From assembly GCF_003202035.1 (NCBI RefSeq), contig NZ_QJKC01000001.1:223406-287405 (forward strand): a DNA stretch of 64,000 nt, in the 5' to 3' direction. The notes beneath the pieces were generated by a model. The model had not been told where the DNA came from. It worked only from the letters and a program-made list of their open reading frames with translations, and ran no database searches. The translations under genes were made by a program, and so were the position numbers. The DNA is from Aquitalea magnusonii. GTDB lineage: Bacteria; Pseudomonadota; Gammaproteobacteria; Burkholderiales; Chromobacteriaceae. Below are positions 4,755 to 56,443 of this stretch, one piece after another. Positions within the stretch are counted from its first letter, which is position 1, and each line of letters starts with the position of its first letter.

Positions 4755-4770
4755 CGTGCAAGAAAGGGGT

Positions 4771-8441: not shown

Positions 8442-8453
8442 TCTCGTCCTTTG

Positions 8454-8529: not shown

Positions 8530-8643
8530 GTGAGCATTCATCATCCTGGCAACAGCGGTTCCGCCAGTTGCCCGCCATGCGCTCGCCTTCCTGCTAGCTG
8601 CGGGCAAGCGGCGCAGGGGCATGTCTTTGACCAGATGGCAGGT

Positions 8644-8976: not shown

Positions 8977-8988
8977 GATGCTCCCCAA

Positions 8989-9898: not shown

Positions 9899-10048
9899 CT
9901 GAAGGGTGAATCGAATGACAATCATGCTGGTGGCAGCGCGCACCCTGCTGGCGGTGACTTGTAGCGCACCAGCCATGGATAAAAACATGCCTTCACGCCG
10001 CCATTTGCTGAAGGCCATCCACCTGTTTCCTGCAGAAAGCCCATCCAG

Positions 10049-10468: not shown

Positions 10469-10516
10469 TGACCAGGCTCGGCCTTGGGCTGGCCGGAAAC
10501 CTGCTGGATGATGTGC

Positions 10517-11254: not shown

Positions 11255-11501
11255 GAAGCGCGCTCCTTTGCGAAGCAAATGTCTTTAGCATTATTTATAA
11301 ATGCCCGGCATCGATTTTGTTGGTTAATTGGCGCGGCAAATGCAAATTGAATGGACCGGGCGGCTGTGCGATGGAGCAGGGCGCGCAGGCGGCTGCGCAA
11401 TCCGGCTGGGTGATGCAGCCAGCCAAGCCATGCTAGTATTGCCACCTTGCATCCATGTTCATCAAGCCAGATGGCCAACCATTAAGGGCCCAGACTTCAC
11501 C

Positions 11502-11891: not shown

Positions 11892-11935
11892 CAGGCTTGC
11901 CAGCCAAGGGGCAAGACGCTATATTGCAGCCCTTC

Positions 11936-12011
11936 GCCGGTGTAGCTCAGTTGGTAGAGCACCTGACTTGTAATCAGGGGGTCGCGAGTTCGATTCCTGC
12001 CGCCGGCACCA
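11936..12011 (+). tRNA. tRNA-Thr (anticodon UGU)
   Basis: A 76-nt cloverleaf. The acceptor arm GCCGGTG pairs with CGCCGGC (one G-U pair). The D arm has GCTCAGTTGGTAGAGC, the anticodon loop CTTGTAA gives anticodon UGU, the T loop is GTTCGATTC, and CCA is encoded. It is followed at once by a terminator. Confidence 0.97.
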
Positions 12012-12017
12012 TATTCC

Positions 12018-12048
12018 ACGGGCCTTGTAGAAATACAAGGCCCGTTTT
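12018..12048 (+). terminator. Terminator after tRNA-Thr
   Basis: ACGGGCCTTGTA / TACAAGGCCCGT, a 12-bp stem with a GAAA tetraloop, followed by TTTT. Confidence 0.9.
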
Positions 12049-12206
12049 ACATTTTGCTGCCTTGTCGGCAAATTCCGACAAAGGCTCTCCCAACCCCACT
12101 CCGTGCTTGCGGTATCGTGCCGGCCGCATCCTGGCCGCGCGTCGTGAAGTCTTGCGGCTCGCTCAAGTGAACTTCACCTCACTCTCATGAATGCGCAATT
12201 GACCCA

Positions 12207-13874
12207 ATGATTATCCTGAAGAACGTGGCCTTGCGTCGCGGTAGTAAAGTGTTGCTCGACAATGCCTCGGTCACGCTCAATCCGGGCGAGAAAGTGGGGC
12301 TGGTTGGCCGCAATGGCGCGGGCAAGTCCTCCCTGTTTGCGGTGCTCAATGGCAGCCTGCATGAAGATGGCGGCGATGTGTCGATTCCGGCGCAATGGCG
12401 CATGGCGCAGGTGGCGCAGGACATGCCGGAGACCGAGCAAAGTGCCACCGATTTCGTGGTCGAGGGCGATACCACCTTGCTGGCGGCGCGGCTGGAAGTG
12501 GCCGAGGCCGAGGCGGGTGAAGACTATATGCGCATGGCGCATGCCTATACGGCGCTGAATGATGCCGGCGAACACGACGCGCCGGCGCGGGCGCAGTCGC
12601 TGATTCTGGGCTTGGGTTTTAGCGTGGCCGAGCTGAGTCAGCCGGTAAACAGTTTTTCCGGCGGCTGGCGCATGCGTCTGCAACTGGCCCGCGCGCTGAT
12701 GTGTCCGTCTGATTTGCTGCTGCTGGACGAACCGACCAACCACCTGGACCTGGACGCGCTGGTCTGGCTGGAAGCCTGGCTGAAAAACTATGGCGGCACC
12801 ATGGTGGTGATCAGTCATGACCGCGAATTCCTTGATGCAGTCACCAATGTCACCCTGCATGTCGACAATGCCAAGCTGGTGCGCTACGGCGGCAATTACA
12901 GCAAGTTTGAAGACATGCGTGCCGAGCAGATGATTCTGCAGCAGGCGGCGCAGGCCAAGCAGCAGGAGAAGATTGCCCATCTGCAAAGCTTTATCAATCG
13001 CTTCAAGGCCAAGGCCAGCAAGGCCAAGCAGGCACAAAGCCGGGTCAAGGCGCTGGAGCGGATGGAGAAGATTGCGCCGGTACTGGCCGAGGCGGATTTC
13101 CAGTTTGAATTCAAGGAGCCGCAAAGCCTGCCTAATCCGATGCTGACCATGTCGCAGGCCGAGTTTGGCTATCCGGCGGCAGAGGATGCGCCGGCGGGTA
13201 CGCCGCCCACCGTGATCGTGCGTGGTGTCAATCGCTCGGTACTGGCCGGGCAGCGCATCGGCATCCTGGGGGCAAACGGGCAGGGCAAGTCGACCCTGGT
13301 CAAGACTGTGGCCGAGGCCTTGCAGGCCACTGGCGGCGAGATCATTCGCGGCAAGGGGCTGAATATCGGCTACTTCTCGCAGCAGGAGCTGGACGTGCTG
13401 CGCCCGCAGGATAATCCGCTGGAGCACATGTTCCGCCTGGCGCGCGACATTCCGGCCGCCCTCCGTCCGCCGGCCAATGATTGCCGCGAGCAGGGGCTGC
13501 GCAATTTTCTCGGCACTTTCAATTTCAGTGGCGACATGGTCAAGCAGCAGGTGGGCAGCATGAGCGGTGGCGAAAAGGCGCGGCTGGTGCTGTGCATGAT
13601 CGTGTGGCAGCGCCCCAACCTGTTGCTGCTGGATGAGCCGACCAACCACCTGGACCTGGCCACCCGCGAAGCCTTGAGCGTGGCGCTGAACGAGTTTGAA
13701 GGTTCGGTGATGCTGGTGAGTCACGACCGCGCCTTGCTGCGGGCGGTGTGCGATGAGTTCTGGCTGGTTTCACGCGGCGGGGTGAAGGATTTCGACGGCG
13801 ACCTGGATGACTATCAGGTCTACCTGCTGGAAGAGGCGCGCCGCCGCCGCGAACAGGCAGCCGGCAAGCGCTGA
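12207..13874 (+). CDS. ABC-F family ATPase (YheS/Uup-like)
   Basis: 555 aa soluble protein with two ABC domains in tandem and no membrane domain. Domain 1 has Walker A GRNGAGKSS, signature FSGGWRMRLQLA and Walker B LLLLDEPTNHLDL; domain 2 has GANGQGKST, MSGGEKARL and LLLLDEPTNHLD. The linker (about residues 230-290) is rich in Lys and Gln and looks like the ABC-F interdomain arm that reaches into the ribosomal P/E region. Order and arm are YheS-like, but the C-terminal extension of E. coli YheS is absent. Role in ribosome rescue or translation is family inference. No clear ribosome site precedes the ATG. Confidence 0.92.
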   Translation: MIILKNVALRRGSKVLLDNASVTLNPGEKVGLVGRNGAGKSSLFAVLNGSLHEDGGDVSIPAQWRMAQVAQDMPETEQSATDFVVEGDTTLLAARLEVAEAEAGEDYMRMAHAYTALNDAGEHDAPARAQSLILGLGFSVAELSQPVNSFSGGWRMRLQLARALMCPSDLLLLDEPTNHLDLDALVWLEAWLKNYGGTMVVISHDREFLDAVTNVTLHVDNAKLVRYGGNYSKFEDMRAEQMILQQAAQAKQQEKIAHLQSFINRFKAKASKAKQAQSRVKALERMEKIAPVLAEADFQFEFKEPQSLPNPMLTMSQAEFGYPAAEDAPAGTPPTVIVRGVNRSVLAGQRIGILGANGQGKSTLVKTVAEALQATGGEIIRGKGLNIGYFSQQELDVLRPQDNPLEHMFRLARDIPAALRPPANDCREQGLRNFLGTFNFSGDMVKQQVGSMSGGEKARLVLCMIVWQRPNLLLLDEPTNHLDLATREALSVALNEFEGSVMLVSHDRALLRAVCDEFWLVSRGGVKDFDGDLDDYQVYLLEEARRRREQAAGKR

Positions 13875-13897
13875 GCGGCAGTTGCACTACTGCAGAG

Positions 13898-13919
13898 GGG
13901 TCGCCATGGGCGGCCCTTT
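13898..13919 (+). terminator. Possible terminator after the ABC-F gene
   Basis: GGGTCGCC, a 3-base loop and GGCGGCCC (one G-U pair), followed by TTT. The T-run is short, so confidence is moderate. The remaining bases to 14107 should hold the gyrA promoter. Confidence 0.45.
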
Positions 13920-14107
13920 GTCATGGCTGGCGGCTGGCGGCTGCGCTGGCTTTTGCCACGGGCGCACGGCTAAGTACCTGACGCAGCAGGCCGCCGCCGT
14001 GCTGGCAGCCATTGCGCCCGTCCCGCACGCGACAAGGCATGCGTAGGCGGGGTGGACGTGCTAGAATCTAGGCTATTTTTGATTCCTGAAAAGATAGCCA
14101 TTTACCC

Positions 14108-16807
14108 ATGACAGATCAGCTTTTCGCCAAGGAAACGATCCCAATCAGCCTCGAAGAGGAAATGCGCCGCTCCTACCTCGATTACGCCATGAGCGTGATC
14201 GTGGGCCGCGCGCTTCCCGATGTGCGTGATGGCCTCAAACCGGTACATCGTCGCGTGCTGTTTGCCATGCACGAACTTTCCAACGATTGGAACCGCGCCT
14301 ACAAGAAATCGGCGCGTATCGTGGGCGATGTCATCGGTAAATATCACCCGCACGGTGACTCGGCGGTATACGACACCATCGTGCGCATGGCGCAGGACTT
14401 CAGCCTGCGCTACCCGCTGGTGGATGGCCAGGGCAACTTCGGCTCGGTGGATGGCGACAGCGCCGCCGCCATGCGTTACACCGAAATCCGCATGGCGCGC
14501 ATTGCGCACGAACTGCTGGCGGACATCGACAAGGAAACCGTGGACTTCGGGCCGAACTATGACGGTTCGGAACACGAACCGCTGATCCTGCCGGCCAAGA
14601 TTCCCAATCTGCTGATCAATGGCTCCTCCGGCATTGCCGTGGGTATGGCCACCAATATCCCGCCGCACAACCTGACGGAAGTGGTGGATGCCTGTCTGGC
14701 GCTGCTGGCCAATCCGGAACTGACCATCGATGATCTGATCGACATCATTCCGGCACCCGACTTCCCCACCGCCGGCATCATCTATGGTACGGCCGGGGTT
14801 AAAGAGGGCTACCGCACCGGTCGTGGCCGCGTCATCATGCGCGCCCGCACCCATTTCGAAGACATCGGCAAGGGCGACCGCCAAGCCATCATCGTCGACG
14901 AGATTCCCTACCAGGTGAACAAGTCGCGCCTGCTGGAGCGCATTGCCGAACTGGTGCGTGACAAGCAGATCGAAGGCATTTCCGATCTGCGCGACGAGTC
15001 GGACAAGTCCGGCATGCGCATCGTGATCGAGCTCAAGCGCGGCGAAATGCCGGAAGTGGTGCTCAATCACCTGTTCAAGCTGACCCAGCTGCAAGACAGC
15101 TTCGGCATCAATATGGTGGCCCTGGTCGATGGCCAGCCGCGCCTGCTGAACCTGAAGCAGATCATTGACGAATTCCTGCGCCACCGCCGCGAAGTCGTCA
15201 CCCGTCGCACCATTTTCGAATTGCGCAAGGCACGTGAGCGTGGCCATATCCTGGAAGGTCTGGCCGTGGCGCTGTCCAATGTGGACGACATCATTGCCCT
15301 GATCAAGGCCTCGGAAACCCCGCCGGCCGCCAAGATCGCCCTGATGGCGCGCCCGTGGCGCTCCGAACTGGTGGAAGAAATGCTGTCGCGCGTGGACCAG
15401 AGCAAGGCCCGTCCGGATGGTCTGGACCCCGCCTTTGGCCTGCATGGCGATGGCTATCGTCTGTCCGATGCGCAAGCGCAAGCCATTCTGGAAATGCGTC
15501 TGCAACGCCTGACCGGCCTGGAGCAGGACAAGATCGTCGGCGAATATCGCGACATCATGGCCATCATCCTGGACTTGATCGATATTCTGGAACGTCCGGA
15601 GCGCATCAACCAGATCATCGGTGACGAGCTGTCCGCCATCAAGACCCAGTTCGGTGATGCACGCCGTTCGGAAATCGAGCCGTTTGGCGGCGACATCAAT
15701 ATCGAGGACCTGATCACCCCGCAAGACATGGTGGTGACCATCTCCCATACCGGCTACATCAAGACCCAGCCGATTGACGACTACCGCTCGCAACGCCGTG
15801 GCGGTCGTGGCAAGCAGGCTGCCGCCACCAAGGATGACGATTTCATCGACACCCTGTTCGTGGCCAATACCCACGACTACGTGCTGTGCTTCTCCAGCAA
15901 GGGTCGCTGCTACTGGATCAAGGTCTACGATCTGCCGCAAGGCGGTCGCAACAGCCGTGGCAAGCCCATGGTGAATGTGTTGCCGCTGGCCGATGGCGAG
16001 AAGATCAACGCGCTGTTGCCGATCAAGGCCTTCACCGATGCCGAAGCCGTGTGCGACGAAAATGAAGATGACGAAGCCGCCGCCCTCAAGGCCAAGGGTC
16101 CGTTCATCTTCATGTGCACCGCCAACGGCACGGTGAAGAAAACCCCGCTGGAAGCCTTCTCCCGTCCGCGTACCGCCGGCATCATCGCCGTGCGTCTGGA
16201 AGAAGGTGACAACCTGATTGGCGTGGCCCTGACTTCCGGCAACGAGCAGATCATGCTGTTCTCCGACGGCGGCAAGGCCGTACGCTTCAGCGAAACCGAC
16301 GTGCGCCCGATGGGTCGCACTGCCGCAGGCGTACGCGGCATGATGCTGGCCGAAGGCCAGCATGTGATTTCGCTGCTGGTCACCAATTCCGAAGAGCAGC
16401 AGGTGCTGACCGCCAGCGATGGCGGCTATGGCAAGCGCACTCGTACCGGCGAATTCCGCCATACCAGCCGCGGCACCCAGGGTGTGATTGCCATGGACCT
16501 GACCGACAAGACCGGCCTCAAGCTGGTGGCCGCCAGCCTGGTGGAAGACAGCGACGACGTGATGCTGATCACCACCGGTGGCGTGCTGATCCGCACCAAG
16601 GTATCGGAAGTGCGCGAAACCGGCCGCTCGGCCCAGGGTGTACGCCTGATCAACCTGGACGAGGGTGAAAAGCTGATCGGTCTGGAAAAAGTGGCCGAAG
16701 GCGAGTCGGACGAAGAGGCTGAAATTGTTGATGGTGATGTGGTCGACGGTGAAGACAACGCCGCCCCGGCTGCCGACGCCGCCAGCGCAGGGGAAGCCGA
16801 GGCATGA
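14108..16807 (+). CDS. gyrA: DNA gyrase subunit A
   Basis: 899 aa; breakage-reunion subunit of gyrase. The catalytic tyrosine is Tyr124 ([11 protein letters not shown]). The quinolone-resistance region reads [11 protein letters not shown], with Ser85 and Asp89 at the positions equivalent to E. coli Ser83 and Asp87, so no classical resistance substitution is present. The GyrA box of the C-terminal beta-pinwheel is QRRGGRGKQ. The tail after residue 860 is strongly acidic ([18 protein letters not shown]), as in other GyrA proteins. The stop overlaps the next start by four bases (ATGA), which couples gyrase to a thioesterase-like gene. Confidence 0.98.
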
Positions 16808-17268
16808 CGGCAACGCCTGCCAATGCGCAGGTGCTGGAGACGATGAGCGCGCTCTTCGTCTCCTTGCCGCACTGCGCCACCCTCGGTTTCCAGTACCTGG
16901 GCACCGAGGGCCGCAAGCCCACCCTGAAAGTGGAGTGGCGCGAAGACCTGGTGGGCAACCCGGCCAGCGGCACCATTCACGGCGGGGTGATCACCTCGCT
17001 GGTGGATACCACCAGTGCCGTTTCGGTCACCGCCTGCCTGCCGGACTTTGAAACCATTGCCACACTGGATCTGCGCATCGATTACCTCAAGGCAGCCACG
17101 CCGGGCAAGGCCATCTACTGCCGGGCGGAATGTTACCGTCTGGCCAGCCAGATCGCCTTTACCCGTGCCGTGTGCTACCACGACGATCCGGCCGACCCCA
17201 TCGCCCATGGCGTGGCCACCTTCATGCGTGAATCCAGCCGCGCCTCCATGCTGAAAGAGGGGACGTGA
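16804..17268 (+). CDS. PaaI-type hotdog-fold thioesterase
   Basis: 154 aa. The hotdog signature is [24 protein letters not shown], where HGG and the following Asp are the usual active-site region of PaaI-like thioesterases; [21 protein letters not shown] matches the next conserved strand. It probably hydrolyses an acyl-CoA; the substrate is unknown. Its ATG overlaps the gyrA stop by four bases, so it is translated with gyrA, and a second family member follows immediately. Confidence 0.88.
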
Positions 17269-17708
17269 TGAGCGAATTCATGCAGCAACTGGCTGCCCTG
17301 CGCGATGACAATAATGTCGCCGCGCTGTGCGAGGCCATTCCCTATGCCCGCCTGATGGGGGTGGAAGTCAGCACGGGTGACGATGGCGAATTGCTGTTCC
17401 AGCTGCCGTTTTATCCGCGCAATGTCGGCAACACTGTCTTGCCGGCGCTGCATGGCGGGCTGATCGGCGGTTTTCTGGAAAATGCCGCACTCTTGCACCT
17501 GATCTGGCACCGCGAATCGCTGGAAGCGCCGAAGATTGTCGATTTTTCGCTGGATTACCTGCGCTCCGGCCGTCCACAGACGCTATTCGCCCGCTGCGAG
17601 ATCACCAAGCAGGGCAAGCGCGTGGCCCATGTATTGATCGAAGCCTGGCAAGAAGACCGCCGCAAGCCGGTGGCTGTTGCCCGGGCCCACTTCCTGCTCA
17701 CGCAGTGA
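17268..17708 (+). CDS. PaaI-type hotdog-fold thioesterase, second copy
   Basis: 146 aa. The same fold with VLPALHGGLIGGFLENAALLHLI as active-site region and DFSLDYLRSGRPQTLFARCEI as the next strand; it is related to but clearly diverged from its neighbour. The ATG at 17268 shares a base with the previous stop and has GAGGGG upstream; a GTG three bases earlier is also possible. The pair may form a heteromeric enzyme, which is inference from the tandem, coupled arrangement. Confidence 0.85.
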   Translation: MSEFMQQLAALRDDNNVAALCEAIPYARLMGVEVSTGDDGELLFQLPFYPRNVGNTVLPALHGGLIGGFLENAALLHLIWHRESLEAPKIVDFSLDYLRSGRPQTLFARCEITKQGKRVAHVLIEAWQEDRRKPVAVARAHFLLTQ

Positions 17709-17769
17709 CACACACCGGCATGGCCTGCCGGGTCATGCCGCAACATTGAAGCAATGACTGAGGACAGAC

Positions 17770-18855
17770 ATGGCCAAGGTGTATAACTTTTCTGCCGGAC
17801 CGGCGGTATTGCCCCACGAAGTACTGGCTCAGGCCCAGAGCGAAATGCTGGACTGGCACGGCTCCGGCATGTCGGTGATGGAAATGAGCCATCGCGGCAA
17901 GGAATTCATGGAAATCATCCATGATGCCGAGCACGACCTGCGCGAGCTGATGCAGGTGCCGGCCGGTTACAAGGTGCTGTTCCTGCAGGGCGGCGCCTCC
18001 ATGCAGTTTTCCATGGTGCCGCTCAACCTGCTGGGCGACAAACAGTCGGTGGATATCGTCAATACCGGCCACTGGTCCAAGCTGGCCATCAAGGAAGCGC
18101 GCCGTTATTGCCATGTCAATGTGGTGGCCAGCAGCGAAGACCGCAACTTTGCCTATGTGCCGGCAGAAGAAAACTGGCAGCGCGACCCCAACGCCGCCTA
18201 TCTGCATTACACCTCCAACGAAACCATTGGCGGCCTGCAGTTCCCCTTTGTCCCGGCCGACCTGGGCGTGCCGCTGGTTTGTGACATGTCGTCCGACTTT
18301 CTGTCGCGCGAAGTCGATGTCAGCAAGTTCGGCCTGATTTATGCCGGCGCGCAGAAGAATATCGGCCCGTCCGGCCTGGTGGTATTGCTGGTGCGCGAAG
18401 ACCTGCTGGGCCGCGCCCGTGCCGATCTGCCGACCATGCTGAATTACCAGACCCACGCCGATGCCGATTCCATGTACAACACGCCGGCGACCTATCCCAT
18501 CTATATCGCCGGCCTGGTGTTCAAGTGGCTGAAGCAACTGGGCGGGATCAAGGGCATGGCAAGCCGCAATGCGGAAAAGGCCGGCCTGTTGTATCACGCC
18601 ATCGAGGCCAGCGAAGGCTTCTACCATACCCATATCGATGCACCGTACCGCTCGCGCATGAATGTGGTGTTCCGCCTGAAGGACGAGGCGCTGGAAGAAA
18701 GCTTCCTGATGGAAGCGCGCAAGAACGGGCTGATCCAGCTCAAGGGCCATCGCGTGGTCGGCGGCATGCGTGCCTCCATTTACAACGCCATGCCGATCGA
18801 AGGCGTCAAGGCGCTGGCCAATTTCATGCAGGACTTCGCCCGCCAGCACGGCTGA
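17770..18855 (+). CDS. serC: Phosphoserine aminotransferase
   Basis: 361 aa class V PLP enzyme. It converts 3-phosphohydroxypyruvate and glutamate to phosphoserine, and acts likewise in pyridoxal phosphate synthesis. The N-terminus KVYNFSAGPAVLP is diagnostic. The PLP lysine is Lys196 in YAGAQKNIGPSG, and FLQGGASMQFSMVPLNLL is the phosphate-binding region. GAGGA upstream fixes the ATG. A strong terminator follows, so gyrA, the thioesterases and serC could form one transcript ending there. Confidence 0.97.
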   Translation: MAKVYNFSAGPAVLPHEVLAQAQSEMLDWHGSGMSVMEMSHRGKEFMEIIHDAEHDLRELMQVPAGYKVLFLQGGASMQFSMVPLNLLGDKQSVDIVNTGHWSKLAIKEARRYCHVNVVASSEDRNFAYVPAEENWQRDPNAAYLHYTSNETIGGLQFPFVPADLGVPLVCDMSSDFLSREVDVSKFGLIYAGAQKNIGPSGLVVLLVREDLLGRARADLPTMLNYQTHADADSMYNTPATYPIYIAGLVFKWLKQLGGIKGMASRNAEKAGLLYHAIEASEGFYHTHIDAPYRSRMNVVFRLKDEALEESFLMEARKNGLIQLKGHRVVGGMRASIYNAMPIEGVKALANFMQDFARQHG

Positions 18856-18889
18856 GCAGTATTGTTCTGCTGTGGCGACAGTGTGTGCA

Positions 18890-47118: not shown

Positions 47119-47238
47119 GATGCTTGTCTTTCTGTGCGGGTGGGTCAAGCCAGCTATGGTAGCGGGCCACAAGCCGGGTGAGAAGCCGGACATGACCACG
47201 GCAAGAACATGGTTTGGCTTTATGCCGTGGTTTACATG

Positions 47239-47266
47239 AGTTCGCATAATATATATTATGTCAAAT
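47239..47266 (+). other. dif: dif-like site and left attachment site of the prophage (attL)
   Basis: XerC arm AGTTCGCATAA (47239-47249), central TATATA (47250-47255), XerD arm TTATGTCAAAT (47256-47266). As I remember them, the XerC arm is identical to the neisserial dif and the XerD arm differs by one base, and both are close to E. coli dif. Both arms are intact, so this copy should still serve chromosome dimer resolution with FtsK. An 18-bp core (47250-47267) is repeated at 54456-54473. Confidence 0.85.
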
Positions 47267-47364
47267 ACGCTATCATGGCGTACATGGCCTTGCGACTGGC
47301 CTTGCTGAGCACCACAAAGCTGTTCGGCATACCGTAACGAGCCGATCAACGACATTGGCGTTAC

Positions 47365-47820
47365 ATGATGCGTCGTAAATTCCCCTGGTGCGAATTCTCC
47401 TGCAGCCCGACCGAACTGGTTCGGGCTGTTTGTTTTGGTGACCTCTACACGGTGGCCAGCGAATGCGGTCTGCAGCCCGACCAGCTAGGCCGCTGGCGAT
47501 CTGGCCGCGAACCTGTGCCGAAATGGGCATTCATCCTGCTGTCTGGCCGCAATAGCGTCACGCTGCCGGCTTCTGCCGGGCCATGGCGAGGCTTTCGCGT
47601 GTCCGATGATGGTTTGCTGCTGGAATGTCCCGCAACGCGTGTGCGGCTGCGCTATGAGGATGTGGCCATGATGCCCGAGTACCGCAAGGCGCACCGACTT
47701 GTCCAGGAACAAGCTGAGCTGATTGAACGGCTGATGATGGAACGCGATTTCTACCGCAGGAACTGCCACCACCAAGCGAAGTACGGGGCCCTACTCTACC
47801 GCCTGTTTCCTGACGAATAA
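47365..47820 (+). CDS. Phage regulatory-type protein (DUF3653-like)
   Basis: 151 aa. The N-terminal half (SPTELVRAVCFGDLYTVASE, then LQPDQLGRWRSGREPVPKWA) resembles helix-turn-helix-like proteins of Xanthomonas and Vibrio filamentous phages, as far as I can recall. The C-terminal half is a coiled coil (RLVQEQAELIERLMMERDFYRRNC). In the circular phage it follows the repressor gene by 27 bp on the same strand, so they would be one operon. A second ATG at 47368 is possible. Confidence 0.6.
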   Translation: MMRRKFPWCEFSCSPTELVRAVCFGDLYTVASECGLQPDQLGRWRSGREPVPKWAFILLSGRNSVTLPASAGPWRGFRVSDDGLLLECPATRVRLRYEDVAMMPEYRKAHRLVQEQAELIERLMMERDFYRRNCHHQAKYGALLYRLFPDE

Positions 47821-48380
47821 CGCCCTTGCTGCACGACGTTTTTTCGTCGGTTTCCTGCGGCAAAATTCTCAAAATGAGAAAAAAGACGGGTATTACATAG
47901 TCACCCGTCTACTTCGGGTGGCTTCGCCACCCCCGCTACGCGGCTTGCGCGGTGATGCTCGCCGCGGTGGGGCGTAGCCCCTTCCCGCGCTCGCATCTTC
48001 CCGCGCTTGCCTTGTTGTCGGTGATGTCATGGCCTGCACCTGCTAAATGCCCAGCAAGGGCGATAAATCCGCCCATGCCAGGCATTAAGCCCCCGTACCC
48101 TACCAACCGGAACGATAGATCTGTTCCGGCCGGCAGTGCCTACGGGTACGCCGTCCCGGCGAGGTTTGGTAATCAGGTTCAGAGGAGCAAGGTTCTGGAG
48201 TTGGCCGGAGGCCAACTCTGTCTGCAATGAAGTGAGGGGGTTTGGCTGCTGACGTGCAAGGCCGCGCATCCATGAAGGCAAATTAGTGCTGCAGCTTAGG
48301 ATAACGGCTTTGACACCCGAGCAACTGGCTACTAAAAAGTGTTGTATTTAATGCATTTTAAGACTGGCACGAAAATAGCA
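47821..48380. other. Phage intergenic region with hairpins: likely origin and packaging signal
   Basis: 560 bases without genes, with at least five inverted repeats: AGACGGGT/ACCCGTCT (47884-47910), GGGTGGC/GCCACCC (47916-47932), GGGGC/GCCCC (47969-47981), CCGGAAC/GTTCCGG (48107-48129) nested inside CGTACCC/GGGTACG (48094-48150), and GAGTTGGCC/GGCCAACTC (48198-48218). Filamentous phages keep their plus- and minus-strand origins, packaging hairpin and terminator in such a region between convergent gene blocks. Which hairpin does which job cannot be read from sequence alone. Confidence 0.65.
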
Positions 48381-48614
48381 TTATTGACATTTAGAGTTAC
48401 ATATCTTTTTGAATTGGCTTTTTAGCTCTGAATCGTAGTAACGGCGAACGACACGACGAGCTATACGCCACCAAATCGGATACATGACAAGGTAAAACCA
48501 CGGCTCAGCCCAGCGAAGCAGAATAGGCACAACAGAAGCAAGAAAGGCCCCAAAAAAGCCGGCAGCAATAGCAATCTGCAAAACAATAGACAGCGGTATA
48601 GAAATCAGGTCCAT
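48381..48614 (-). CDS. Small phage membrane protein, 77 aa
   Basis: Starts one base after the zot stop codon, so translation is coupled. One or two membrane segments (about residues 8-50: IVLQIAIAAGFFGAFLASVVPILL and WFYLVMYPIWW) are followed by a basic tail (RRVVRRYYDSELKSQFKK). No family recognised. As the last gene of the structural operon it may be an accessory assembly or host-interaction protein. Confidence 0.65.
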   Translation of the reverse strand: MDLISIPLSIVLQIAIAAGFFGAFLASVVPILLRWAEPWFYLVMYPIWWRIARRVVRRYYDSELKSQFKKICNSKCQ

Positions 48615-48615
48615 A

Positions 48616-49824
48616 TCAATTCGCGGCAGAAGCCGCTCTCCTCTTCATGGTCAAGCCGGGATGCTGGCGCAAATCATCAAAACGGTTACCTTGCGGGTCT
48701 GAATCGCCCATAACAGCAAACTGAGAATTAACAGGCGATTGCCGGCCTTGCAGCGGGGTTTGGCGCGGCTGCTGAGTCTCGGGCACTACATTGCGTGGCT
48801 CAGCATAGCGGTCGTCTCTGCGTCCCTGCTGCTCGTCAACATAGGGGTCAAACTCAGAACGCTCTACCCTCGCCTTGCACTTGTCCAGGGGAAGATCAAC
48901 AGGCGTACCCTGCTGAGTGAAGCACCCGCACTTCTTTGTGCTGGCAATGCAAGCAACAATACGGGGAAAGGTTCTAGGAACAGCAAGGTCGTCGTATCGA
49001 GGGGCAGTCTCAGGAGCCTCTGGAATACGGGGAATCCTCTCCTGAATGGCCATTAAAATGGTTTTCGGAGGTTTCCCCCCGGCGCTAACCGCCCCACCTT
49101 GCAAGGGGGAGCCAGCACCCGACTGTTGTGGGTTCGGAGCGCCGGGCGCAAGCTGCGCTTGCATCTGGTGAGGTGTCACCCAGAACATCTGGTAAAGCTT
49201 CCAGCCCAGAAAGCCCAAAGCAAATAAAACGAATACGGCGAGTATCAAAAGCTGTTTAAGCTTTTTGGGCATCTGGAATTTATGGGTGTGAGCTTCTGCA
49301 CTTTTGTACCAGCTATAAACTTCCTTCGGAAAAACGAATACCTTGTTGTCCAGGCATGACTTAGTCGCAGAACGAGAATTCGGGTTTTCTTGGCAACCCT
49401 CTTGCCAAGTGAGGAGCGTAGAACGCTGAGCGCCAAACTGACGAACCAAATGACGATGCGTCCCCACAAGTTTACGGATATGAGCATCCATAAGGCTTGG
49501 ATGCTGAGTAATAAGAACAACGTCGATACCGAGGTGGCGGTGTGTTTCGAACATTGATACATGCTTAGGAACAACGCCACCTGACCGCCTAACGCCAAAT
49601 ATTCTCTGGCACTCATCAATGACCACAATGGCCTCAGCAGGTAATTCAAACCACTTTTCAGGGTCTTCCAATTCAATCCAGCCGAGCAATTCTTTGCCTT
49701 TATCAGATAGTGGAATACCTGAGTAATAAACTTGACGATTTTCATTGTCGGCCTTTTCTTTTAGCCATTGAAGAGTAAATAGGGTTTTGCCACTGCCGGG
49801 TGTTGCGGTAATGAGGTAAATCAT
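48616..49824 (-). CDS. zot: Zot-like assembly ATPase (pI)
   Basis: 402 aa zonula occludens toxin-domain protein, the inovirus morphogenesis ATPase of the inner membrane. Walker A is ATPGSGKT (residues 7-14) at the N-terminus and Walker B is AIVVIDECQRIFG. A transmembrane helix lies near residues 188-212 (LLILAVFVLFALGFLGWKLY), with a Pro/Gln-rich periplasmic C-terminal part. Its ATG overlaps the 58-aa gene's stop by four bases. This is the marker gene that identifies the element. Confidence 0.93.
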   Translation of the reverse strand: MIYLITATPGSGKTLFTLQWLKEKADNENRQVYYSGIPLSDKGKELLGWIELEDPEKWFELPAEAIVVIDECQRIFGVRRSGGVVPKHVSMFETHRHLGIDVVLITQHPSLMDAHIRKLVGTHRHLVRQFGAQRSTLLTWQEGCQENPNSRSATKSCLDNKVFVFPKEVYSWYKSAEAHTHKFQMPKKLKQLLILAVFVLFALGFLGWKLYQMFWVTPHQMQAQLAPGAPNPQQSGAGSPLQGGAVSAGGKPPKTILMAIQERIPRIPEAPETAPRYDDLAVPRTFPRIVACIASTKKCGCFTQQGTPVDLPLDKCKARVERSEFDPYVDEQQGRRDDRYAEPRNVVPETQQPRQTPLQGRQSPVNSQFAVMGDSDPQGNRFDDLRQHPGLTMKRRAASAAN

Positions 49825-49997
49825 AAATGATCACCAATAAAAATAAGAAAAGCAAAAAAGAATGCATTAAAACAAGAAACACAAGACAGTTTTAAAAATA
49901 ATGCGTAGTGATGAAATGACTTTTCAGCGAAAAAAGCAAAGATAATCGACATAAAAAAGAAAAGAACAGGGAAAAAATAATGGGAAATAATTTCCAT
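49821..49997 (-). CDS. 58-aa phage membrane protein coupled to pVI and zot
   Basis: Below the usual length cutoff. It starts at the ATG ending at 49997, which shares a base with the DUF2523 stop (TGATG), and ends at a TGA that overlaps the zot start (ATGA). Overlap at both ends is strong evidence for a gene. The product is very hydrophobic with two membrane segments (MEIISHYFFPVLFFFMSIIF and CFNAFFFAFLIFIGDHL) and a short loop with two His and Tyr. No family is known to me. T-rich codons differ from the host. Confidence 0.7.
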   Translation of the reverse strand: MEIISHYFFPVLFFFMSIIFAFFAEKSFHHYALFLKLSCVSCFNAFFFAFLIFIGDHL

Positions 49998-50317
49998 CAC
50001 TTACCCCCAAATCCAGAAAACTTAATCTGAGAATAATTACCAGCCTTATCCATACCGGCCAATGTAAGGCGAATTGTATAAGCGCTAAATAATAACGAGA
50101 AACAAACACCAAGACCGGACATGCCAAGAATATTTACAGCATCAGAACCAAAGCCAGAAGTGAAACCCATAATCGCAGATTTCAACTTGCCGACAATCAA
50201 GTTGACGCCAATGAACGTCACAGAGCCGACGCCAATAGCAGTCAATATACGGGCAATAAGGGCGCTCAGAATAGAACTAATAACACCCCAAACAACAGGA
50301 ATCAACCAAGCGGGCAT
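49997..50317 (-). CDS. DUF2523-family phage protein (pVI-like minor coat)
   Basis: 106 aa with three hydrophobic segments (WLIPVVWGVISSILSALIARI, VTFIGVNLIVG and SGLGVCFSLLFSAYTIRL). The position between pIII-like and Zot genes is that of gene VI in other inoviruses, and DUF2523 proteins occur there. AGAGGT precedes the ATG. Likely caps the virion end together with pIII. Confidence 0.82.
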   Translation of the reverse strand: MPAWLIPVVWGVISSILSALIARILTAIGVGSVTFIGVNLIVGKLKSAIMGFTSGFGSDAVNILGMSGLGVCFSLLFSAYTIRLTLAGMDKAGNYSQIKFSGFGGK

Positions 50318-50322
50318 GGCAA

Positions 50323-51642
50323 TTACCTCTTGAGAATAATAGCGACAGCAACTAGAAAGCCGCAGGCAATAACAGCAGGACGGAGACGAGCGACAATGTC
50401 ACAGAATGGGCTGTAATCAATAGTCCAATTCCACTCAGTAATGTAAAGCGGAACAACAACAACCTTAGGAGCAGGACAAGAACCACCGCCGAAGAAATCG
50501 GACGTATCCAGCATGCTGGATATATCACCACCAGCAGAAGCAAGGGATGAAGGCGAACCACCATCGGGGCCGGAAAGGCCAGAGCCTAGATTACAGACCC
50601 AGTCAGGCAAGCCAGTGCATTTGCCGGGGTCTTGTGAGTCAGTGCCGGAAGCATTGGGAGAACCGCCATTTGAAGGGCTGGAAGCGCCAGTACCCGGATT
50701 ATTAGAGTTACCGCCAGAATTACCAGAACCACCAGAACCAGAACCAGAGCCTCCCGGTTTTGAATTAGGATCAACACAAACAGTTTGTTGACCCGTGGAA
50801 ATCTTATTCCAACCATCAGGGCAATTAGCATTAGAATCAGGCTGAGTATTCGGATAGCACTTGAAAGCGCCAGTTGAATCAATGGTTCCAATATAGTTAG
50901 CAGCGCAATTGCCATTAGCATCTTTACCAGTTGCAGGATCAGCAACAGGCGCATTAGACGAAGGAATTGGGCCAGCGCCAAAACAACCTTGAAGTGTTTT
51001 TCCATTAGCAGAGACAGTGCCCCAATACTCATCAGACTTACAATTTCCGGGAGATTGAGGCAAAGGCTGTGGAAGCGCAGGCATATTTCCGGAATTCGGA
51101 TTAGATGGGTCAGCTACTTGAGCAGTAGCAGTACAGGTAAAACCAGTGTAATCCATATACAACGGGGGACCGAGAGGATTAAAACGGGCAGTCATGCTAC
51201 AACCAACACCCGGCGGCGGGTCGCAATCATCTGGCATTGTGGCAGGCGCAGAAGGAATGCCACACATAGAAGAACTAGAAATATCACTCATAGCCAAGCC
51301 CCATCCTTTTTTTGCAGCACAACGGGCAGCAATATTAGACATTGAGCAAGTTGGACGAGTATTTTTACAAACACCATTAACATCAGACGTGCCAGAGGGG
51401 CAAGAATAAATAGCGTCGCCGTAAAAACGGGTAATCCGAGGTGATTCAGCATTGCAAGTATATGCGTTTTCATAAACATTAGTCCCCGGCACTTTCATAT
51501 AACCGAGAGAAGAACCACCACCATTAGGCGCAGACGGAGGAACACCCGTATAAGACCAGCATTTATTATCAATCACATCATCAGCGAAAGAGTATCCAGC
51601 CAGCCCCAACAAAAGCAATAATAACGAAATAACCCGCCACAT
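50323..51642 (-). CDS. pIII-like adsorption protein (TspB-like)
   Basis: 439 aa. Signal peptide MWRVISLLLLLLGLAGYSFA, then a Cys-rich N-terminal region that should contact the host pilus or receptor, a Gly/Ser/Asn-rich linker (about residues 293-330, GSGSGSGGSGNSGGNSN and on), and a C-terminal membrane anchor (LRPAVIACGFLVAVAIILKR). The end, TIDYSPFCDIVARLRPAVIA, resembles the meningococcal phage-encoded protein TspB, which binds immunoglobulin in Neisseria; that property cannot be assumed here. AGGGG precedes the ATG. Confidence 0.85.
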   Translation of the reverse strand: MWRVISLLLLLLGLAGYSFADDVIDNKCWSYTGVPPSAPNGGGSSLGYMKVPGTNVYENAYTCNAESPRITRFYGDAIYSCPSGTSDVNGVCKNTRPTCSMSNIAARCAAKKGWGLAMSDISSSSMCGIPSAPATMPDDCDPPPGVGCSMTARFNPLGPPLYMDYTGFTCTATAQVADPSNPNSGNMPALPQPLPQSPGNCKSDEYWGTVSANGKTLQGCFGAGPIPSSNAPVADPATGKDANGNCAANYIGTIDSTGAFKCYPNTQPDSNANCPDGWNKISTGQQTVCVDPNSKPGGSGSGSGGSGNSGGNSNNPGTGASSPSNGGSPNASGTDSQDPGKCTGLPDWVCNLGSGLSGPDGGSPSSLASAGGDISSMLDTSDFFGGGSCPAPKVVVVPLYITEWNWTIDYSPFCDIVARLRPAVIACGFLVAVAIILKR

Positions 51643-51663
51643 TACGCACCCCTGTCACAGAAT

Positions 51664-51688
51664 AAAAAAAGGGTGGCAGATGCCACCC
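51664..51688 (-). terminator. Terminator after the major coat protein gene
   Basis: GGGTGGCA, a 2-base loop, TGCCACCC, with T7 on the minus strand. Inoviruses usually have such a terminator after gene VIII so that coat protein is made in great excess over pIII. Confidence 0.9.
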
Positions 51689-51710
51689 CTGCCATTAACC
51701 CGGCGTTAAA

Positions 51711-51944
51711 TCAGGAGCGGGCAAGAGCGCCCTTGACCATGCCATACAGCTTGATCAGACCCTGTACACCCAGAACAGCAGCACCGATAGCGGAAACAGC
51801 AGCCAAGCCAGTGCCGATAAGGGTCACCAGACTGGAAACGTCAACACCGGCAGTATCAGCAAAAGCCGGAGTAGCAACAACCGAAGCAACGATGACAGCG
51901 AGTGCCAGACGCTGAACCGAGGAAACGCGAGAAGCGATAGTCAT
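51711..51944 (-). CDS. Major coat protein (pVIII)
   Basis: 77 aa precursor. Signal peptide residues 1-29 (ending ATPAFA), mature part of 48 aa beginning DTAGVDVSSLV. The layout is classic: acidic N-terminus, one long hydrophobic helix (VTLIGTGLAAVSAIGAAVLGV) and a basic C-terminus (KLYGMVKGALARS) facing the DNA. The mature length is close to that of M13 and Pf1 coat proteins. A strong terminator follows. Confidence 0.92.
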   Translation of the reverse strand: MTIASRVSSVQRLALAVIVASVVATPAFADTAGVDVSSLVTLIGTGLAAVSAIGAAVLGVQGLIKLYGMVKGALARS

Positions 51945-52186
51945 TAGTTTTCACCTTGAGATGAAGAAAGGAAATTGCCGATATTCCTGTAAAGCCAAGC
52001 AGACCCCCAAACGAGTAAGATAGCCCCGGAAATCAAAGAACCATCAGCGAGGGAAAGCGGCGGGAACATCGGCTGCAGAGTGGCTACCTCTTGCGGGGAA
52101 AGCAGGAGATAGCCTTGACACGACTGAGGGGAATCAGTCGTGGCAATGAAGGAGCCATCGGACTGTGCCTGGACGCAAAGGGACAT
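51944..52186 (-). CDS. Small phage membrane protein (pVII/pIX-like candidate)
   Basis: 80 aa. Its ATG overlaps the replication-gene stop (TAATG). It has an N-terminal Cys pair (SLCVQAQSDG and SPQSCQGY) and a C-terminal membrane helix (LISGAILLVWGSAWLYRNIG). It lies just upstream of pVIII, where small minor coat proteins lie in other inoviruses. The role is inferred from position and size. Confidence 0.7.
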   Translation of the reverse strand: MSLCVQAQSDGSFIATTDSPQSCQGYLLLSPQEVATLQPMFPPLSLADGSLISGAILLVWGSAWLYRNIGNFLSSSQGEN

Positions 52187-53331
52187 TAAGCAGCCTCTCG
52201 CGCAGGCTCAGCCGGAACAGCTGAAAGCGTCATACGGCGCTGGTGATTCCAATACCAATCAGGTGCGGAATCCAGCGGCTTGAGTTCAATAACCTTGATC
52301 ACAGAAGCGAACTTCTGCAGGGTGGGCAGAGGCTCAGAAATATCCAAGCCGTAGTCGCGCAGCACCTTTGAGTGCCGGTAAAAAGTGGGCGTGGAAAGAA
52401 GCGTTTTCACGTTCTCACCGCGCAGGAAAGCGGCGGCAGTCATGCGGACTTTGGCCGGGAGAGCGTCCAGCTCGAGACGGGTCACATCAGCCTTCACGCG
52501 GCCAATCAGCGGGTTTACTTCATCGTCAAAAAGCTCAGTCAGTTTTTCCATGGTGATATCCCCGAGGAAGCGCAAGCGGTTGTCGCGGAGGAGCAGGCGT
52601 CCCGCTTCCAATTCCAGACGGACAACACCCTCTTGCAGGCAATATTGATAAACGGGGTCAGCTTCGACCTGTTGGCGTTTGCGGCCATGACGATGCACGA
52701 GCATTTCAACGTGCTTGATGTAGGCCTTGAGAAGTTTGCGACCGCCTTTGCGGCCCCATTGGGTAGTTGACTCGCCAGCACGGCCACGGCGGACATTGCT
52801 CATCGACTGCGTAGCCAGCCAGTCAATGACAGCCTGTGCGTTAGCTGCAGAGCCTGCAGCGTAGTTGCGTGTCAGGTGAATGTTGCTGATAGAAGCGCCG
52901 GTCCAATACTCAAACAGACCATGCTTCACATCGTGTGCAGACGGGTTAGGGTTTATCACCTGCTCACCAGCGGTGAAAGGTGGCAAACCGTAACGCGCCA
53001 GCAGCTCGTTACAACGCTGCAGGGTGGCGTCAAAGTCCAAGTTAAAAAGGTTGTCGCACCGATCGAGACGGCCAATGTTGCCAGTAAGCTCAACGGTGAA
53101 GCCGTCAGACTTGATGATGACGAGGGAGTCAAACGAACCACGGATTTTCTTGCGTGACTGCATGGCCCATTCAGGGTCTTCGCAGTACTCCCCCGTATCA
53201 TCCGAGCGCGGAAACTTGCCAATGACGCCTTCATCGACCATGGGAATGGTCGGCACCAACTCGCCGGTTTCCAGATCGAGGCGACCCGGATGCCGTTGCT
53301 TGATGGTGATGGAGTCAATGAAAAGTGACAT
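52186..53331 (-). CDS. Phage replication initiation protein (gpII/X family)
   Basis: 381 aa. The N-terminal region (DSLVIIKSDGFTVELTGNIGRLDRCDNLFNLDF) resembles the Phage_CRI/Phage_X replication proteins of Ff- and Pf-type filamentous phages that nick the plus-strand origin with a tyrosine and start rolling-circle replication. Tyrosines are present in YIKHVEMLVHRHGRK and its surroundings, but I cannot assign the active one. It starts six bases after the preceding gene's stop. Confidence 0.85.
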   Translation of the reverse strand: MSLFIDSITIKQRHPGRLDLETGELVPTIPMVDEGVIGKFPRSDDTGEYCEDPEWAMQSRKKIRGSFDSLVIIKSDGFTVELTGNIGRLDRCDNLFNLDFDATLQRCNELLARYGLPPFTAGEQVINPNPSAHDVKHGLFEYWTGASISNIHLTRNYAAGSAANAQAVIDWLATQSMSNVRRGRAGESTTQWGRKGGRKLLKAYIKHVEMLVHRHGRKRQQVEADPVYQYCLQEGVVRLELEAGRLLLRDNRLRFLGDITMEKLTELFDDEVNPLIGRVKADVTRLELDALPAKVRMTAAAFLRGENVKTLLSTPTFYRHSKVLRDYGLDISEPLPTLQKFASVIKVIELKPLDSAPDWYWNHQRRMTLSAVPAEPAREAA

Positions 53332-53337
53332 GGCGCT

Positions 53338-53667
53338 TTACTGTTTTGCAGGCTGGGGAACGAGGGCCGCCCAACTGGTGACGTTCTCCACCACCAAGAC
53401 AACAATGTTTTTGCCGCCTTCACGGGTAAGACGGGAGCCGGTTACAACATCGGCCAAGCAGGGGTAAGTCATTTCCTTGAGCTTCGGAATAGCGCTCTCA
53501 GCCACCTCGACAGGGGCTTGCTCATAGCCTCTCACTTCTCGGGTGTAGCCTTCCTTTTTGAAGTCAGAGGCTTGGAAATGGGCAGACAGTGAAGCCATGC
53601 TGTAAGCCTTGCCGGACTTCTGGGAAACCCCGAAGGAGTGTTCGAACATCGTAAGAAGCATTTTCAT
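53338..53667 (-). CDS. Phage ssDNA-binding protein candidate (pV-like)
   Basis: 109 aa with GAGG eight bases before the ATG. Beta-rich, basic-to-neutral, with sequence such as KEGYTREVRGYEQAPVEVAE and GKNIVVLVVENVTSWAALVPQP. The length and position directly before the replication gene are those of gene V, whose product coats the phage single strand. Assignment rests on context; sequence similarity is not obvious to me. Confidence 0.6.
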   Translation of the reverse strand: MKMLLTMFEHSFGVSQKSGKAYSMASLSAHFQASDFKKEGYTREVRGYEQAPVEVAESAIPKLKEMTYPCLADVVTGSRLTREGGKNIVVLVVENVTSWAALVPQPAKQ

Positions 53668-53677
53668 GAAATAAACC

Positions 53678-53989
53678 TCAATGAATTGAAAGCAGGTGAG
53701 CGTGAGAAACGGGCTTGACGCGGTAATTAACGCTATGGTCATGGCCTACAAACCAAAACAAACCATGGCAATAACAAGACGGGCCAAAAAAGGGAGCTTT
53801 TTTGGAAGCAGGGTAATCACCAAAATGCTTGGCAGCCTCACATTGCCAACGGTAAGCAAGCTGCTTCACAACAGCAGGAATGCGGCGAATAACAAAGCCG
53901 GAGCCGGTCACGTAAAAACCACGGCTGCAAGACATCAGGATGTGCGAAAAAGACTTCCACATTCCGCAACGCTTTAGACGGTAGGTCAT
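53678..53989 (-). CDS. Hypothetical phage protein, first gene of the leftward operon
   Basis: 103 aa. A strong AGGAG lies six bases before the ATG and its stop is ten bases before the next gene's ATG. The protein is basic and rich in Cys, His and aromatic residues (SRGFYVTGSGFVIRRIPAVVK, SCYCHGLFWFVGHDHS). No domain recognised. It is downstream of the predicted leftward promoter and its two operators. Confidence 0.7.
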   Translation of the reverse strand: MTYRLKRCGMWKSFSHILMSCSRGFYVTGSGFVIRRIPAVVKQLAYRWQCEAAKHFGDYPASKKAPFFGPSCYCHGLFWFVGHDHSVNYRVKPVSHAHLLSIH

Positions 53990-54023
53990 GGCCAGCTCCT
54001 GCTAAAATTAGGAATACGGCTAG

Positions 54024-54078
54024 TGCACTCAGGCGAGTGCATGACAGAATGCTATTGCACTCATGTGAGTGCAGTCAA
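54024..54078 (-). promoter_or_regulatory. Leftward phage promoter with two identical repressor operators
   Basis: Two 18-bp sites, each TGCACTC-N4-GAGTGCA, at 54024-54041 and 54056-54073, 32 bp apart (three helical turns). On the minus strand TTGACT (54078-54073) and TAGCAT (54054-54049) form a promoter with an 18-bp spacer almost filled by the second operator. The first operator would lie just downstream of the predicted start. The arrangement allows tight repression of the replication and coat genes by the adjacent repressor. Confidence 0.7.
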
Positions 54079-54087
54079 GGGACGCAC

Positions 54088-54606
54088 ATGAAAAAAAGCA
54101 CGGAGTACCTGATCGAGGCGATTGAGAAGCTAGGCGAGAGCAGTAAAGCGAAAGCAGCTGAAAGGCTGAAAATCAGTCGAAACACAATCGTTCAGTACAT
54201 AAACGGTGAACGCATCATGGACGACTTCGCCTGCATCATGGTTGCAGACGTGCTTGGCATACAGGGCATGGAAATCATCGCGGCGGCCCAGATGGAGCGT
54301 GAGACCAGCGAGGACCGAAAGAGGGTGTGGGAGGATTTCAGAAGAAAGCTCGGCGTGATGGGAGTGGCCGGGCTGATGGCGGTGGCAATGATGGGACTCC
54401 CCCAACAGGCGAAGGCTAGCGAAGCGGGGAAGGAGGGCTTTAATAAGCAATCGCTTATATATTATGTCAAATATAGTATCGGGCATGATCCAGTACAACA
54501 GGCAAGGCATCATCAAGCCCAGCCTGCCGGATGGGAGCGCCTTGTACACATCAGCTTGCACACCAGACTGACTAAACACGGCTTGCTGACAGGAGGTTTT
54601 GCCTGA
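54088..54606 (+). CDS. Phage repressor-type protein (DUF3693-like), C-terminus altered by integration
   Basis: 172 aa in the integrated form. AAGGG lies six bases before the ATG. The N-terminal helix-turn-helix is AKAAERLKISRNTIVQYING (residues 19-38), followed by a charged helix (ERETSEDRKRVWEDFRRKL) and a hydrophobic segment (VMGVAGLMAVAMMGL). The dif-like core lies within the frame (KQSLIYYVKY), so codons after 54473 are host DNA. In the circular phage the same frame would go on from 47267 for 22 codons and stop at 47337. It is divergent from the leftward operon, as expected for an RstR-like repressor. Confidence 0.75.
   Translation: MKKSTEYLIEAIEKLGESSKAKAAERLKISRNTIVQYINGERIMDDFACIMVADVLGIQGMEIIAAAQMERETSEDRKRVWEDFRRKLGVMGVAGLMAVAMMGLPQQAKASEAGKEGFNKQSLIYYVKYSIGHDPVQQARHHQAQPAGWERLVHISLHTRLTKHGLLTGGFA
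54445..54472 (+). other. Right attachment site of the prophage (attR), degenerate XerC arm
   Basis: XerC-side arm AAGCAATCGCT (54445-54455), poorly conserved, then TATATA and an intact XerD arm TTATGTCAAAT (54462-54472). The 18-bp core equals that at attL. The poor XerC arm is phage-derived in this reading, so only the left copy should work as a normal dif. Confidence 0.8.
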
Positions 54607-55258: not shown

Positions 55259-56443
55259 TTGAATTTCCCTGCCTTGATTATTGAGACGGATGCCGATACT
55301 GCCACAGCCAGTTCGGCCACATTGCAGCCTGCCGCGGCGCATGGCTGGAATCGCCAGCAAGGTGCCTGTCTGATCGATGCTGATTCCGATGTCGAGGCTG
55401 TGCGCACCTGGCTCAAGGAATATCGCCAGCGGCCGCGCACGCTGGACTCCTACCGCAAGGAAGCCGAGCGCTTCCTGTTATGGGCCTCGCTCAAACGTGG
55501 CAAGAACCTGTCGGACATCAATCGCGATGATGTGCTGGAATACAGCGAGTTTCTGCGCAATCCGGATATCAGCTGGTGCGGGCCAACCCGACCGCGCAGC
55601 CACCCGGACTGGAAGCCGTTTGCCAAGTGGTCGCCACACAAACACGGCCTGTCAGCGTCCTCCTGCCTGCAGGCCCAGGTGATTCTGGCCAATTTGTTCC
55701 GCTATCTGGTTGAAGCCGGCTATTTGCGCCACAACCCGTTCGCTCTCAAACGCGGGCGCACACCCGACGCACGGGTCATCCATGACGAACGTCTGCTGGA
55801 AAAAGAAACCATAGATTTCCTGTTCGACTGGCTGGAAACCTTGCCGGCGGAAACCGAGCGGGAAAAGCGCCATGCCGAGCGCGCCTTGTGGATCATCTCG
55901 CTGTACTACTACACAGCAGCCCGCTTGCGCGAAATTCCGACGGCACGCATGGCAGACATCCGGCTGATCCGGGGTAACTGGTGGTTCCGGGTGACCGGCA
56001 AGGGTGACAAGGAAGGGCTGGTGCCGGTGCCGGCGGCGCTGTTGACCGCCTTGCAGCGTTATCGCCGTTTCCTGGGGCTGACGCCCCTGCCCTCGCCGGC
56101 GGAAACCACGCCACTGGTGTGCAGCGTGTATGGCGAGATGGCCGCCATCAGCGCCGATTCGCTGTACAAAATCATCAAGTCCATCATGAAATCTGCTGCG
56201 GATGATGCACGCGCCAACGGCCACAGCCAGATTGCCGCCAATCTGGAACATGCCACCACCCACTGGCTGCGGCATAGTTCGGCCTCGCATCAGCTGGAGG
56301 CCGGCCTGCCCTTGCTGACCGTCAGCCAGAACCTGCGGCATGCGCAGATTGAAACCACCCGGCGCTATCTGCATACCGAAGATGATGACCGGCATCAGGC
56401 CACCGTCAACTGGAGCAAGCCCGGCAAGCGCAGCCGCGACTAG
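55259..56443 (+). CDS. Tyrosine recombinase/site-specific integrase
   Basis: 394 aa. An N-terminal SAM-like DNA-binding domain (about residues 40-165: VRTWLKEYRQRPRTLDSYRKE) precedes the catalytic domain. The first Arg is in YTAARLREIPTARM, the His-x-x-Arg pair in THWLRHSSASHQLE, the second His in LRHAQIETTRRYLHTE, and the Tyr in the same segment (RRYLH). Thus the R-H-R-H-Y set is complete. It starts with TTG, with GGAG seven bases upstream. It lies outside the prophage core and 0.8 kb from dif; XerC, XerD or a stand-alone phage-type integrase are all possible, but it is longer than XerC/D (about 300 aa). Confidence 0.9.
   Translation: MNFPALIIETDADTATASSATLQPAAAHGWNRQQGACLIDADSDVEAVRTWLKEYRQRPRTLDSYRKEAERFLLWASLKRGKNLSDINRDDVLEYSEFLRNPDISWCGPTRPRSHPDWKPFAKWSPHKHGLSASSCLQAQVILANLFRYLVEAGYLRHNPFALKRGRTPDARVIHDERLLEKETIDFLFDWLETLPAETEREKRHAERALWIISLYYYTAARLREIPTARMADIRLIRGNWWFRVTGKGDKEGLVPVPAALLTALQRYRRFLGLTPLPSPAETTPLVCSVYGEMAAISADSLYKIIKSIMKSAADDARANGHSQIAANLEHATTHWLRHSSASHQLEAGLPLLTVSQNLRHAQIETTRRYLHTEDDDRHQATVNWSKPGKRSRD

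Follow-up and report, generated by a model that had tools for sequence, protein, structure and literature searches.

Attachment sites (attP) located inside the gene for a helix-turn-helix (HTH) regulator have been published for the inoviruses XacF1 (PMC5666396, PMC4076744) and phiRSS0 (PMC3816273, PMC4471427). According to PMC3816273, integration shortens the phiRSS0 regulator from 156 to 130 aa, the lysogen carrying the 26-aa-shorter form is immune to phiRSS0, and a switch between the two forms was proposed in 2013. Deletion of most of ORF12 of XacF1, which its authors equate with the primary immunity determinant of Cf, delayed integration and destabilised the prophage (PMC5666396). Integration-dependent immunity, with attP in the repressor gene and two C-terminal forms, is described in PMC4557955 for the mycobacteriophage BPs (gp33). 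The choice between production and lysogeny in filamentous phages that borrow the host Xer recombinases is poorly understood, and our search of the literature on integration-dependent immunity of filamentous phages and on inovirus attP, repressor, XerCD, and superinfection found no test of the two-form proposal for phiRSS0. Here we describe an inovirus prophage in which integration exchanges the C-terminus of the repressor, and compare its two repressor forms with those of related phages.

Results

Prophage and attachment sites

The window, a stretch of 64,000 nucleotides from the 4.4-Mb genome of Aquitalea magnusonii, contains an inovirus prophage of ~7.2 kb between the cores (47267..54472, no strand assigned), which was delimited by gene matches, a 17-bp direct repeat, and empty sites in relatives. 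Its proteins match a G2P-type replication protein, RstB, DUF2523, a TspB-like protein, and Zot, and no match to an integrase was found among the nine scanned prophage proteins. The 17-bp cores (47250–47266 and 54456–54472) are identical, TATATATTATGTCAAAT, and the identity extends further by 0 bases leftward and 1 base rightward. On the basis of the sequence and of the single dif per genome in the genus, attL (47239..47266, + strand) is a complete dif, AGTTCGCATAA-TATATA-TTATGTCAAAT; attR (54445..54472, + strand) consists of the dif central region and one arm (54456–54472) behind a degenerate arm. We take the XerC and XerD arms at this dif to be arranged as in the Escherichia coli site. In a scan tolerating up to 2 mismatches, the 24-base dif pattern gave a single match per genome in 9 of the 10 genomes of the genus, including the window's own, the tenth genome being 61% complete. 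At the dif sites of six relatives, the left flank of the window aligns in five and the right flank in three, with both flanks aligning in two (L109 and L110), and the DNA beyond 54472 is therefore of host origin.

The presence of dif suggests that recombination is carried out by the host XerC and XerD. A gene for a 394-aa tyrosine recombinase of the XerC/XerD-like type is located just outside the prophage, near dif (55259–56443), and its product scores well below the equivalog cut-offs. In another genome of the genus (G005), a pair of inovirus prophages in opposite orientations is arranged head to head across one dif (L045, about 975–18860); one has the TTATGTCAAAT arm in common with its attR, and the other the opposite arm, TTATGCGAACT.

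Two forms of the repressor

The repressor gene of the prophage (54088..54606, + strand) encodes 172 aa and was assigned by its frame, by a match to phrog_638 (transcriptional regulator; E 1.1e-20), and by a sub-cut-off match to HTH_3 (22 bits, just short of the cut-off of 23). The initial annotation had stated that this frame passes through the attR core and ends in host DNA at 54606, and the 172-aa frame is confirmed; host DNA (54473..54606, + strand; identified from the frame and the relatives' dif flanks) codes for the last 43 residues. Its second statement also holds in its coordinates: when the cores are joined, the frame continues for 22 codons past 47267 to a stop at 47337, 27 bp ahead of the ATG of the next phage gene at 47365, giving a repressor of 151 aa. 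The segment specific to the free form (47267..47337, + strand), recognised from the joined frame and from the protein P0016 described below, comprises a core-straddling codon, the 22 codons, and the stop. With 129 residues common to both forms, the free and the integrated phage do encode different tails, one of 22 phage-encoded and one of 43 host-encoded residues. The two frames, the host right flank, and the location of attP, after the repressor body and ahead of the next gene, can all be read directly from the DNA.

P0016, a metagenome protein of 151 aa, corresponds to the joined form of the repressor without interruption and ends KQSLIYYVKYAIMAYIAWKLALLGGTKLFGIP, differing from the free-form tail of the window by 5 substitutions over 23 residues; the uninterrupted joined frame thus exists in nature. 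It is encoded on a metagenome contig of 2,246 bases, which may represent a circle or a tandem array. In its structure model, residues 1–80 have pLDDT values above 90, and the tail is not confidently modelled. Foldseek searches against the PDB with this model and that of the product of the gene behind attP (see below) gave nothing at E ≤ 0.001, the matches being mostly HTH proteins. The window repressor itself has only three weak matches in the phage collection, all to records of one phage, and no match in the plasmid collection. The HTH is followed by a hydrophobic stretch (54350–54420, about residues 88–104; peak, 2.08). Behind this stretch, an A-x-A motif occurs in 55 of 80 relatives (34.3 expected from shuffling), which recalls a signal-peptidase site.

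Comparison of the tails

In Markov-resampled copies of the downstream DNA, at least 23 open codons are reached in 34%, and a length of 21–30 codons in 10%; because of this high chance level, the open frame alone proves nothing, and comparison has to decide. Tails of one family, recognisable by their FAYA ending, come after cores with the readings YYVK (P0083), LLCQI (P0067), and FIMSN (P0068 and P0082), so that one tail is found behind all three reading frames of the core. Similarly, the two prophages of L045 and the one of L047, from two genomes of the genus, have a ..NTMxP.. tail in common. The preceding core reads YYVK in one of the three, ILCQI in another, and HYAN in the third, where the reading runs through the opposite dif arm.

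The own-frame tails have 21–30 codons at 13 of 16 junctions, a range that was set after the data had been seen; when frames were chosen at random, this count was reached in 1e-5 of the trials and the spread in 3e-4. With kinship partly removed by leaving out close relatives, 9 of 12 junctions fall in the range (count, 3.4e-4; spread, 0.02), as do 6 of 9 in Chromobacteriaceae alone (count, 0.003; spread weak, p 0.09). For the phages of Xanthomonas and Stenotrophomonas, overlap with the following gene inflates the other-frame lengths used in this comparison. Their attP sites were taken from the annotation for phiXv2, phiLf (NC_073754), and Cf2, and deduced from dif-like sequence for SHP2, SMA6, and phiLF (MN263053). 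The three junctions outside the range (L035, 2 codons; L081, 12; L082, 40) are part of tandem arrays, whose left end could derive from another phage; L038 is also in a tandem array, yet its tail length lies inside the range. Outside the test of 16 junctions are L043 and L050 (stop in the core, both forms equal), L048 (a decayed repressor in a 4.5-kb element, with the free-side stop at +227), L094 (record ending at the core), and P0016 and other database proteins; L037/L098, L041/L099, and L044 were left unpaired.

The prophage-side tails of nine prophages span 0–44 codons, and lysogens therefore manage without a fixed tail. Recurrence of tails by host is seen as well, with SCQSNYGQDC(A/S)GKFLRD in two different repressors and NEYSSI in five. 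Among 31 related loci, which include some of the same places drawn from two collections, the repressor stops before the core in 7 and within it in 3, so the exchange of tails is not universal; in 6 of the 31, the core was not found by the script. Altogether, the tail of the free phage has the look of a protein segment that is maintained and kept in register, and those of the prophages look like whatever host DNA adjoins.

In author-chosen lists, all 16 free-form tails are basic (net charge, +2 to +8), and nine prophage-side tails range from −4 to +3. A degradation signal of the ssrA type was considered and rejected, the window tail (..TKLFGIP) being unlike the host tmRNA tag (ANDETYALAA). In a raw tally, alanine endings do occur among several other tails (e.g., ..FAYA, ..HGA, and ..QNA). 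A membrane helix was likewise rejected as the common function of the tails, because their hydropathy varies from −1.34 to 1.16.

Presumed operators and promoter-like sites

Two palindromes of the form TGCACTC-N4-GAGTGCA, presumed to be operators, are located upstream of the repressor gene at 54024..54041 (palindrome 1, noted for its rarity in the genome) and 54056..54073 (palindrome 2, lying between the two hexamers of a promoter-like site), neither having a strand. They are the sole exact matches in the 4.4-Mb genome, with one further match at 1 mismatch. Among 13 relatives from Chromobacteriaceae, palindromes are present near both −65 and −33 in five (L034, L036, L038, L039, and L040), a single one in five, and none in three (L044, L045, and L047), all as raw counts. 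The promoter-like site around palindrome 2, TTGACT-18-TAGCAT (54049..54078, − strand), is directed toward the replication genes and was identified by its consensus match, which is weak alone (1 site found vs 0.7 expected). From this arrangement, we infer that the repressor binds the paired palindromes.

Another promoter-like site, TTTACA-17-TATTAT (47231..47259, + strand; 10 of 12 positions matched), is composed of host DNA and dif at attL and faces the gene behind attP; two sites of this type were found in the region vs 0.4 expected. It could still drive that gene in the prophage, which counts against the reading that integration shuts the gene off.

The gene behind attP

The gene directly behind attP (47365..47820, + strand) encodes a protein of 151 aa, for which we found no family match of its own in Pfam, PHROG, or NF040522, and no match in the phage collection. 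Its distant likeness to XafT was noticed through its homologs, which match NF040522 (VC1465-family Xer recombination activation factor) below the cut-off: 4 of the 7 members of the alignment do so, and of 10 further homologs (drawn from 75), seven match at E ≤ 1 and four at E ≤ 1e-3. The best relative reaches 33.6 bits, under the curated cut-off of 70, and ORF11 of XacF1, which occupies the same position, 21 bits. Against the XafT reading, phrog_1668, labelled tail assembly, is matched by 6 of the 7 homologs at E ≤ 0.1. The family order of an HTH followed by W-x-G-F (DUF3653) was looked for by a profile comparison involving the ORF112 alignment and the Xanthomonas and Stenotrophomonas genes, which gave a probability of 49 and an E-value of 1.7e-4. 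Because the scores lie below the cut-off, a rival family is matched, and the profile probability is 49, we describe the product as distantly XafT-like and not as a member of NF040522. In the structure model of the protein (pTM, 0.41), helices resembling an HTH are accompanied by two short strands.

With the repressor on one side of attP and the XafT-like gene on the other, integration also parts the two. In three loci in which the repressor stops before the core (L040, L053, and L104), the XafT-like gene still comes right after the core, and this layout is hence independent of the tail. The family phrog_34897 (279 positions) holds XacF1 ORF12 (positions 1–110) and ORF11 (153–279) in one chain, as though the genes flanking attP were fused in some phage. 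At the far ends of four loci of the Vogesella type (L034, L040, L042, and L043), XafT-like genes are preceded by truncated repressor matches, possibly remnants of earlier integrations.

Discussion

With attP in the 3′ end of its gene, the repressor has a 151-aa joined form and a 172-aa prophage form, and we tentatively propose, as a real possibility, that the exchange makes full repression dependent on integration. The repressor would bind the paired palindromes and shut the leftward promoter, and the phage-encoded tail would restrain it as long as the phage is free; integration would strip the tail and lift the restraint, and excision would bring the tailed form back. That the tail acts as a restraint and not as an activator is our own choice. 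In favour of the proposal are P0016, the tails shared across core frames, the tail-length test, the immunity of the phiRSS0 lysogen with its shorter form, the effect of the ORF12 deletion in XacF1, and the confinement of the exact palindromes to this locus; the chance level of 0.34, the three exceptional junctions, the loci with a stop before or in the core, the absence of an ssrA-like end, the promoter-like site at attL, and the phrog_1668 matches weigh against it. Integration may further cut the XafT-like gene off the repressor promoter, so that less of a recombination helper would be made and the prophage would be stabler. A rather doubtful extension of this proposal is a double lock, in which a single Xer crossover would both strip the basic tail and split the helper from the operon, turning immunity on and excision off only after integration. 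Phages from Chromobacteriaceae, Xanthomonas, and Stenotrophomonas all show this layout, including cases in which attP is reversed, and such recurrence suggests repeated selection for it.

The basic charge of all 16 listed free tails, set against −4 to +3 in the nine prophage-side tails, would also be expected if the tail had a different role in the free phage, such as contact with membrane or DNA or control of host genes, while repression remained the same in both forms. The hydrophobic stretch of the repressor (about residues 88–104) fits this explanation as well, and Hypothesis 1 for phiRSS0 may be cited for it (PMC3816273); we consider it somewhat unlikely, as the hydropathy of the tails, from −1.34 to 1.16, offers no common membrane helix. 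Selection may instead have favoured an attP located where integration separates the repressor from the XafT-like gene and uncouples them, with the altered tail as a side effect. Such uncoupling would account for the XafT-like gene being kept after the core in L040, L053, and L104 despite the earlier repressor stop, and is in line with the joining of ORF12-like and ORF11-like parts in phrog_34897, but it leaves the in-register tail in three frames unexplained and sits poorly with the promoter-like site at attL; we regard it as unlikely.

That the open frame behind attP is meaningless and the tail mere noise appears very improbable. The frequency of 0.34 for at least 23 open codons, the exceptions L035, L081, and L082, and the tail-less relatives are what chance would give; the same tail behind all three frames of the core, P0016, and the tail-length test are not. 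Returning to integration-dependent repression, the in-register tail turns the 2013 suggestion for phiRSS0 into a precise test on a peptide of 22 residues, and the XafT-like gene may supply the other half of the switch.

Comparison with known systems

The initial annotation had likened the locus to the integration-dependent immunity of some temperate phages. The analogy is fair, though unproven for a mechanism of the BPs type, in that BPs also has attP in the repressor gene and a C-terminus changed by integration; it does not extend to the prophage form, which is the longer one in the window, or to the ssrA-like end, which the window tail lacks. According to PMC4557955, BPs encodes an integrase of its own, its prophage form is the shorter one, and its free form bears an ssrA-like tag; the window phage shows none of these three features. 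The gene behind attP bears a distant likeness to the VC1465 family, that of XafT of the Vibrio cholerae element TLCphi, whose role is given in PMC9765430.

The view that such an arrangement would be unusual for an inovirus is contradicted by the published attP sites of XacF1 and phiRSS0. Like the window phage, XacF1, Cf1c, phiXv2, phiLf, and Cf2 have attP in the 3′ end of the regulator gene with a small gene directly behind, and their own-frame tails are of 23–30 codons. The Cf1c cp8-like regulator of this group and the window repressor both match phrog_638 (E 4.9e-43 and 1.1e-20, respectively). PF12472, which has 4 matches across 369 genomes of the class, is matched by XacF1 ORF12 but not by the window protein, and P0016 reaches 15.5 bits (cut-off, 21); a literature search for DUF3693 found nothing. 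XacF1, phiXv2, and phiLf retain the other dif arm (TTATGCGAA..), unlike the window phage. In phiRSS0, as in the window, a dif attP is embedded near the end of the gene for an HTH regulator (ORF13 in phiRSS0), at its 3′ side, and the C-terminus is altered by integration, whereas the prophage form is shorter in phiRSS0 (156 to 130 aa) and longer in the window (151 to 172 aa), a likeness drawn from the published description. With a dif-like attP in the regulator frame, filamentous-phage genes, and no integrase match among its nine scanned proteins, the window phage is of the phiRSS0/XacF1 kind. The arrangement is already known from these two phages, and what is new here is the evidence for a maintained free tail and the XafT-like neighbour.
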